This document shows, in pieces, positions 17,808 to 19,966 of a stretch of DNA of 64,000 nucleotides. The stretch covers positions 465,954-529,953 of the forward strand of contig NZ_NAIA01000003.1 of the NCBI RefSeq assembly GCF_002192535.1. The letters are read 5' to 3'. The notes beneath the pieces are model-generated. The model saw only the letters and a program-made list of their open reading frames with translations, did not search any database and was not told the origin of the DNA. The stretch comes from Polynucleobacter hirudinilacicola. Its GTDB lineage: Bacteria > Pseudomonadota > Gammaproteobacteria > Burkholderiales > Burkholderiaceae. Both the position numbers and the translations under genes were made by a program. How positions within the stretch are numbered: the first letter of the stretch is position 1; each line of letters opens with the position of its first letter.

Positions 17808-17996
17808 CTAATTTAGCCTAACTTTAGCGCTGAGTTCGTTGGCAGCACCTCTTTTATCGACCTGAGATAGTCTGAGAGCTTCAGTTTCAAAGTCGAGCTG
17901 GCCGGGATGAAATTGATCATCGTTTTGTAAGTCGATCACATAGGTCCAGACAAGCTCACGACCACGGTTCTTAAAGACATCAACTACACGTTTCAT
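17808..17996 (-). CDS. Small hypothetical protein (62 aa)
   Basis: MKRVVDVFKNRGRELVWTYVIDLQNDDQFHPGQLDFETEALRLSQVDKRG...; coding-like composition and fits the intergenic space. Confidence 0.55.
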   Translation of the reverse strand: MKRVVDVFKNRGRELVWTYVIDLQNDDQFHPGQLDFETEALRLSQVDKRGAANELSAKVRLN

Positions 17997-18019: not shown

Positions 18020-18820
18020 TTAATTGCTGGCTGGGGAGGGGGTTTCAGTCTTAGTCTGCATGCTTAATGCCTTCTTCAGTGTAATCAAGTTTCGTGGCTC
18101 AATCCGAATAACGCCACCTCGAGGACTATCAATGTCTGCAATCAAGAAAAACGAGACAGCAACAACAAAAGGGAAAATCATAAAGAGGGCAATATTCTTC
18201 TGAAAGTTACGCGCTCCAAATCCAACCAATAAGTTGGCACAGACGGCGATGGCCGCCATGAGTATCCAGGCGGTACTAGGAATGCGATTCCACCACGCAG
18301 CTTGCACATATCCTTGTGAATTGAGAACATCATTCATGCCCGAGACCACCAGTGCAATCGTTGCAGTTTGGTTGCTGCGAGCAGTCGGTAAAATCTCATT
18401 CCATAGATCATTCTGTAGTTGATCCGTCTTTAGACGGATGACCTTGATTTTTTCGCGCTCTTGTTTTGAATAGAACAGAATACGTTGATCTAAGTATTGC
18501 ATGAGTAAATCTTTAGTAACCTGGCTTGCTTTAGGGGGAAGTAGGTCTGCCCGCAAATATTCTGTGCCAATCGCATTTGCTTCACCTTCCTCCAGAGTCT
18601 CCCGTAGGTCATGACGATCAATTGCCATGGAAAAGGTAAAGCCAATCAAAAGTGCCAACAAAGTTAATGTGGCTGTTTGGATGATGCCCAGATCTTCAGA
18701 GGTTTCAGTATCTTTGGTCCGATAGCGACTGAGGACTACGTTGCCAAACCAAACGCAAAATGCAAATACTAGGAATGCAATTCCGAAAACAAGTAGAGGG
18801 TTATTGAGTATGGAGCTAAT
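18020..18820 (-). CDS. DUF4239-like membrane protein; reading frame extends to an apparent ATT start at 18820
   Basis: Track gives 18020..18661 from a TTG. The frame is open for 53 more codons encoding an N-terminal hydrophobic helix (ISSILNNPLLVFGIAFLVFAFCVWFGNVVLSRYRTKDTETSEDLGIIQTATLT). The preceding in-frame codon is the lldD stop TAA, with AGGA about 9 nt upstream. Confidence 0.7.
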   Translation of the reverse strand: MSSILNNPLLVFGIAFLVFAFCVWFGNVVLSRYRTKDTETSEDLGIIQTATLTLLALLIGFTFSMAIDRHDLRETLEEGEANAIGTEYLRADLLPPKASQVTKDLLMQYLDQRILFYSKQEREKIKVIRLKTDQLQNDLWNEILPTARSNQTATIALVVSGMNDVLNSQGYVQAAWWNRIPSTAWILMAAIAVCANLLVGFGARNFQKNIALFMIFPFVVAVSFFLIADIDSPRGGVIRIEPRNLITLKKALSMQTKTETPSPASN

Positions 18821-19966
18821 TTAAAAAGTTCCTGGATACAAAATATCTTTAGTGACATTCTGGATATCACGATGGCCGGTAAATGCCATAGTGATATCTA
18901 ATTCATTCTTAATAATTTCAAGGCACTTGGTAACGCCAGCTTCACCCATGGCGCCTAAGCCATACAAAAATGGGCGACCAATCATAGTGCCGCGAGCACC
19001 TAAAGCCCATGCCTTTAGAACATCTTGGCCAGATCGAATACCGCCATCCATCCATACTTCAATATCTTTACCAACAGCTTCCACTATTCCCGGAAGAGCT
19101 TGAATACTAGAGACAGCGCCATCCAATTGACGGCCACCGTGATTGGAAACAATTAGGGCATCAGCCCCAGAGTTTGCAGCCATGCGCGCATCGTCCTCAT
19201 CCAAGATACCCTTGATAATGAGTTTTCCGCCCCATAGTTTTTTAATCCACTCCACATCACTCCAGCTTAATCCTGGATCAAATTGTTCTGCAGTCCAGGA
19301 AGAAAGGGAGGACATATTTCCTACGCCGGTTGCGTGCCCCACAATGTTGCGGAAAGTTCTACGTGGTGTCATCGCCATTCCAAGACACCAGCGTGGTTTA
19401 GTGGCCATATTGATCATATTGGTGATCGTAAGCTTAGGAGGGGCCGAGAGGCCGTTCTTGAGATCTTTATGACGCTGACCCAAAATTTGGAGGTCGAGAG
19501 TCAGAACTAGGGCTGAGCACTTCGCAGCTTTTGCACGCTCAATTAAGCGCTCAATAAAACCGCGATCTTTCATTACATAGAGCTGAAACCAAAATGGTTT
19601 AGTTGTACGTTCTGCCACATCTTCAATAGAGCAGATGCTCATCGTGGATAAACAAAAAGGAACGCCAAATTTTTCTGCAGCTTTAGCGGCCAAAATTTCA
19701 CCATCAGCATGCTGCATCCCCGTAAGTCCAGTTGGCGCAAGCGCTACTGGCATCGTGACTTCTTGACCGACCATGGTTGTTTTGGTTGTGCGGTTAGTCA
19801 TATCAACGGCAACGCGCTGACGCAACTTGATCTTCTGAAAATCAGATTCATTGGCACGATAGGTAGATTCCGTCCAAGATCCTGAATCTGCATAGTCATA
19901 GAACATCTTGGGGGTGCGTTTTTTGTGGAGTATCCGCAAGTCTTCGATATTGGTAATGATTGCCAC
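18821..19966 (-). CDS. Alpha-hydroxy-acid oxidizing protein / L-lactate dehydrogenase (FMN), LldD-like
   Basis: DYADSGSWTESTYRANESDF, PVALAPTGLTGMQHADGE, VSNHGGRQLDGA, MDGGIRSGQDVLKA. Confidence 0.94.
   Translation of the reverse strand: MAIITNIEDLRILHKKRTPKMFYDYADSGSWTESTYRANESDFQKIKLRQRVAVDMTNRTTKTTMVGQEVTMPVALAPTGLTGMQHADGEILAAKAAEKFGVPFCLSTMSICSIEDVAERTTKPFWFQLYVMKDRGFIERLIERAKAAKCSALVLTLDLQILGQRHKDLKNGLSAPPKLTITNMINMATKPRWCLGMAMTPRRTFRNIVGHATGVGNMSSLSSWTAEQFDPGLSWSDVEWIKKLWGGKLIIKGILDEDDARMAANSGADALIVSNHGGRQLDGAVSSIQALPGIVEAVGKDIEVWMDGGIRSGQDVLKAWALGARGTMIGRPFLYGLGAMGEAGVTKCLEIIKNELDITMAFTGHRDIQNVTKDILYPGTF

Follow-up and report, generated by a model that had tools for sequence, protein, structure and literature searches.

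Comparison of orthologous sequences showed that the gene for a bestrophin-like membrane protein in Polynucleobacter starts at an AUU codon immediately behind lldD. The start codon was canonical before, switched to ATT once and has since been held by selection. Three lines of evidence carry these statements, namely the codon counts in orthologs, the canonical starts in relatives and the gene tree. To our knowledge, AUU starts have been firmly established for only a small number of bacterial genes. The comparative evidence for this one is unusually complete and describes a genus-wide case of more than 100 species, in which those retaining ATG or TTG provide a natural control. Why a weak start is selected can be tested directly, as these are culturable free-living freshwater bacteria. 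Gene callers limited to ATG, GTG and TTG cut the first membrane helix off this protein. The comparison itself (a conserved N-terminus free of the usual starts, an invariant near-cognate codon and a selected upstream Shine-Dalgarno codon) can be applied to any genus in search of more such starts.

Layout of the junction and the encoded protein

The window is the whole 64,000-nucleotide stretch of Polynucleobacter hirudinilacicola DNA that was analysed, and all features of the junction lie on its minus strand. The upstream member of the pair, lldD (18821..19966), encodes an FMN-dependent L-lactate dehydrogenase of 381 aa with a GTG start and a TAA stop (18823-18821). It was identified by PF01070 (E 7e-138) and by NF008398 above its cut-off, and 185 of the 186 genomes of the genus had a match. 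The 3' end of lldD reads ...TAT CCA GGA ACT TTT TAA, and ATT (18820-18818) is the next codon. From this ATT the bestrophin-like frame extends over 266 codons down to 18020 (gene 18020..18820; 266 aa counted from AUU). The 53 codons from ATT up to the internal TTG at codon 54 (18659..18661), where the mechanical ORF caller placed the start, contain no ATG, GTG or TTG. The initial annotation had described this open stretch 5' of TTG 18661 and the position of ATT directly after the lldD stop, and re-reading gave the same result and coordinates. It had also taken an AGGA about 9 nt before ATT for a ribosome site. This motif lies at 18830..18833, 9 nt 5' of ATT, within the Pro-Gly-Thr-Phe tail of lldD, and part of it is the GGA codon of Gly379 (18832-18830), for which selection is described below.

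The product had been called DUF4239-like, in agreement with its match to PF14023 (formerly DUF4239), which Pfam names 'Bestrophin-like domain'. The match reached E 4.7e-17 and 62.8 bits against the Pfam cut-off of 32, covering residues 16-244 and profile positions 4-231 of 232. A PDB sequence search with the protein gave no match. The AlphaFold2 model had a pLDDT of 75.9 and a pTM of 0.62, and its best Foldseek matches were the entries of KpBest, the bestrophin homolog of Klebsiella pneumoniae (4wd7, 5x87), aligned over nearly the full length with E 9e-5. However, the identity to KpBest was only 12-15%, the TM value was ~0.57 and the model was of moderate quality, so that the channel nature of the product is a prediction from the model. 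With this qualification, the product is likely a bestrophin-type ion channel. The first predicted helix comprises residues 8-28 (18737..18799), according to the secondary structure of the model, and includes the conserved P8, F12, W24 and G26. It is part of the product only when initiation occurs at the AUU or very close to it. Among the papers searched, no title of those mentioning DUF4239 was concerned with the function of the domain, and of those on Polynucleobacter and start codons none concerned this gene by title or abstract.

Conservation and history of the AUU codon

The bestrophin-like gene had matches in 129 of the 186 Polynucleobacter genomes, and 109 intact, distinct, lldD-adjacent genes formed the set for comparison. 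Codon 1 was ATT in 105 of these, ATC in one, ATG in two and TTG in one, while codons 2-5 varied freely. A single codon made up 96.3% of this column, the only one above 96% apart from Met and Trp, and no other column reached 97% except Trp or Met codons and gap columns. At the other conserved Ile columns ATT, ATC and ATA were mixed, with ATT accounting for only 33-83%. The odd start codon (ATT, with the one ATC) is thus held by selection across species. Because ATT occurs in 105 genomes, a base error creating it, which the initial annotation had considered, is rejected. The alignment of orthologs for length and start codon that had been proposed as a check also returned a conserved N-terminal helix. 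None of the alternatives that had been suggested (ATA, CTG, the internal TTG) was conserved in the 109 orthologs; with the 53 codons clear as well, no canonical start is available in place of ATT.

The 20 relatives sampled from other genera of the family were 39-53% identical and carried the gene away from lldD. Their corresponding codon was ATG in 16 and GTG in two; in the remaining two an ATG lies upstream of this position, at a distance of one or three codons. In the gene tree, built with FastTree without codon 1 and containing many weak inner branches, all ATT genes and one ATC gene fell into a single group (107 rows with the metagenomic locus L068; local support 81). The lldD-adjacent genes with ATG or TTG adjoined this group, and the ATG genes lay outside it. 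Within the ATT clade, the 106 sequences require a single change of codon 1, to ATC. By contrast, ten conserved Ile columns underwent 12-33 changes each, and 3 changes were counted for the slowest column among 101 conserved ones other than Met/Trp. This contrast is independent of the fine detail of the tree. The two ATG species and the one TTG species still have zero spacing behind lldD; therefore, the adjacency to lldD is older than the AUU.

The 53 codons ahead of the TTG are conserved as protein, so the open upstream stretch did not arise by chance. The pN/pS values were 0.45 for codons 2-25, 0.15 for codons 26-53, 0.07 for codons 54-64 and 0.22 from codon 65 onward. Six residues (P8, G26, L44, G45, T51 and L52) were invariant in the orthologs under free synonymous change; P8 and G26 were kept in 109 of 109 with varying synonymous codons. 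The hydrophobic N-terminal helix that had been noticed in the extension is accordingly conserved among the orthologs.

These data bear on three other explanations of the ATT. An internal start of translation, either TTG 18661 (codon 54) or the conserved ATG 18628 (codon 65), with the upstream part left untranslated, is very improbable. The mechanical ORF list does begin at the TTG, and ATG occupies codon 65 in 108 of the 109 orthologs, but codons 26-64 are the most strongly conserved at the protein level, and the six residues named above are invariant. At codon 54, TTG occurs in 42 of 109 orthologs and other Leu codons in the rest, a start there would remove the conserved first helix, and the relatives begin at codon 1 with ATG. 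Both internal starts were rejected on this basis, and the expectation that orthologs might start at the TTG and lack the helix failed; Met65 may still give an additional shorter product. There is similarly little chance that ATT is kept for some other reason, for instance as an element of RNA processing or regulation, with the real start at another nearby codon. In favour of this, TTTTTAAATT around the codon is rich in A/T and well conserved, yet no start-like codon is conserved among codons 2-8, all replacements at codon 1 are start-capable, the adjoining spacer base changes freely, and ATG or GTG occupies the same position elsewhere in the family. Finally, in P. hirudinilacicola and its clade only one TAA interrupts a frame common to lldD and the bestrophin-like gene, so readthrough of the stop codon, producing an LldD-channel fusion in which ATT is merely an Ile codon, had to be tested. 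It can be discounted almost entirely. One base (T, A or G) separates TAA from ATT in ~45 species and two bases (AA) in one species, and ATT is kept in all of them; the extra bases shift the frames relative to each other, which excludes readthrough fusion as a general mode. The ATG or GTG at codon 1 of relatives away from lldD and the mixture of ATT, ATC and ATA at other conserved Ile codons also speak against it.

Initiation at the lldD stop codon

The Shine-Dalgarno motif of the bestrophin-like gene is AGGA or AGGG, with a one-base variant in a few species, and is located at a proper distance, 9-11 nt 5' of ATT, inside the Gly379 codon of lldD. This codon was GGA or GGG in all 109 genomes with the downstream gene, while the 34 other well-covered glycines of LldD used GGA or GGG in 1-60%. 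Among the 14 genomes of the genus with neither the gene nor a visible remnant after lldD, only five had GGA or GGG at Gly379. The difference between 112/113 and 5/14 gave a Fisher p of ~1e-9 with ancestry ignored, and the only GGC exception was L152, in which the gene begins at an ATG beyond the lldD stop. At the level of codon usage, these counts showed that the Shine-Dalgarno in the last lldD codons is itself under selection, which provides independent evidence for initiation at the junction. In folds of the isolated strand, the Shine-Dalgarno was less open than average and the start codon was open (0.34 vs 0.76 unpaired); this result is weak because of the coding constraint on lldD.

Taken together, the bestrophin-like gene is translated from the AUU after the lldD stop, with the selected Shine-Dalgarno inside lldD, most likely through inefficient reinitiation by ribosomes that end lldD. 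All lldD-adjacent orthologs using the codon 1 start have only 0-2 nt between the stop and the start, as for a translationally coupled pair. Reinitiation in native gene pairs needs such short distances, and it falls steeply with distance in E. coli (PMC10666635). In E. coli, according to the same paper, which cites Hecht 2017, AUU supports ~0.3% of the activity obtained with AUG. In S. aureus grown in poor medium, three non-canonical starts, among them the cvfC1 AUU, reached ~10% of the AUG level (PMC13009471). Initiation factor IF3 acts against non-canonical start codons (PMC5472188), and extra IF3 also lowers reinitiation when a Shine-Dalgarno is absent (PMC2268962).

In the proposed mechanism, ribosomes finishing lldD would be placed on the AUU, and some of them would reinitiate with fMet-tRNA. 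Synthesis of the channel-like protein would then depend mainly on translation of lldD, the AUU would hold its yield to a small fraction of that of lldD, and by analogy with infC the output would be sensitive to IF3. Given the short distance, the infC-like design, the weakness of AUU and the action of IF3, a small share of lldD ribosomes would be expected to restart, which would give a low ratio of the channel-like protein to LldD. We infer the low yield, the coupling to lldD and the IF3 dependence from these features. The idea of reinitiation or a regulated start, raised in the initial annotation, would fit the geometry of the junction, the invariance of the AUU and the selection on the Shine-Dalgarno codon. 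The keeping of an odd start by ~100 species suggests that evolution holds the channel output low and tied to its neighbour.

The AUU could also be the start and yet fix a low protein level simply by weak de novo initiation, with lldD coupling and IF3 sensing playing no regulatory part. We regard this as possible but on the whole unlikely. Selection on the Shine-Dalgarno codon suits independent initiation, the AUU is kept in L068 without lldD, and for pcnB the AUU start has been described as what limits translation (Binns and Masters 2002, as cited in PMC13009471 and PMC9410913). However, the 0-2 nt distance in all lldD-adjacent orthologs with the codon 1 start is what coupling requires, and the partly paired Shine-Dalgarno beside an open start codon weakly favours help from lldD ribosomes. 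Coupled reinitiation at the AUU remains the preferred explanation. A wider proposal, which we put forward as rather doubtful, is that a small IF3-tied set of genes uses near-cognate starts, with AUC or AUA in infC, AUU in the bestrophin-like gene and perhaps CUG in hflX, the AUU serving as both sensor and brake. If this were true, channel synthesis would follow the initiation-factor state of the cell in addition to lldD translation.

Known systems, gene loss and other near-cognate starts

In E. coli, AUU starts have been documented for infC and pcnB (PMC9410913), and in staphylococci for cvfC1 (PMC13009471). The Polynucleobacter junction resembles that of E. coli thrS-infC, where the final codons of the upstream gene likewise contain the Shine-Dalgarno and are followed by a stop and an AUU start. 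The E. coli junction reads GGAGGAA TAA GGT ATT, with the Shine-Dalgarno inside thrS and 3 nt from stop to AUU, whereas the spacing in Polynucleobacter is 0-2 nt. Moreover, the product here is a bestrophin-like membrane protein, and autoregulation by the product as in infC is therefore not possible. E. coli pcnB, whose product is likewise no initiation factor, carries an AUU described as expression-limiting (PMC9410913, PMC13009471), but the gene and the lineage are different. Streptomyces sigR likewise has a non-canonical start, GTC, conserved throughout the genus; it is repressed by IF3 and sets the ratio of two neighbouring products (PMC5472188). In sigR, however, the GUC is on the first gene of the pair, and here the AUU is on the second. 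The AUU of cvfC1 and the AUA of ccpN in S. aureus are also conserved non-canonical starts with a conserved Shine-Dalgarno (PMC13009471), but theirs are extended motifs, in contrast to the modest AGGA or AGGG in the stop-start junction here. Judged by comparative sequence evidence, the bestrophin-like gene is a new and unusually well conserved addition to this small class of non-canonical starts.

The gene has been truncated, split or deleted in several species, and this repeated loss or breakage indicates that it is dispensable. In L190, L191, L192, L195 and L196, the ATT and the first codons persist after the lldD stop, with either a short leftover or the next gene coming after them; these remnants are marks of repeated internal deletions. 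An intact copy on a Neisseriaceae metagenome contig (L068) was nested among Polynucleobacter sequences on the tree. It lies ~220 nt behind a BAX-inhibitor-like gene instead of lldD, with its ATT behind AAAGGA, and a GTG at codon 10 is a possible alternative start. Horizontal transfer is the likely origin of this copy, or else a chimeric assembly. Given the ~220-nt intergenic gap, coupling to lldD is not obligatory there, with the caveats of a chimera and of the GTG; the retained ATT hints that a weak start can be kept without coupling. Downstream of the bestrophin-like gene, at a distance of 23 nt on the same strand, a 62-aa ORF (MKRVVDVFKNRGRELVWTYVIDLQ...) occupies 17808-17996. As L191 and L192 have a similar beginning behind the junction (ATGAAGCGCATTGTTGACGTA), this ORF is probably a real small gene.

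To assess how rare such starts are, a 400-kb part of this genome was scanned against an 800-kb part of a single relative, which gave 343 conserved ORFs; the first unfiltered pass was dominated by antisense shadow ORFs. Among the 343 ORFs, the bestrophin-like gene had the longest stretch without usual starts that showed a synonymous excess (53 codons; 23 synonymous and 9 non-synonymous changes). As expected, infC also surfaced. Its start in Polynucleobacter (G000:C3:689180-689737; L228-L256) appears to be ATC or ATA instead of ATT, preceded by AAAGGA or AGG. In a reading of about half of the loci, the main clade had ATC and a second group ATA. The next gene with a clear synonymous excess was hflX (G000:C3:568475-569725, outside the window; L317-L346). 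It overlaps the end of hfq, and its first 30 conserved codons contain no ATG, GTG or TTG. The sequence CTG TAT AAA overlapping the hfq stop was identical in all 27 loci read, making a conserved CTG start of hflX possible.
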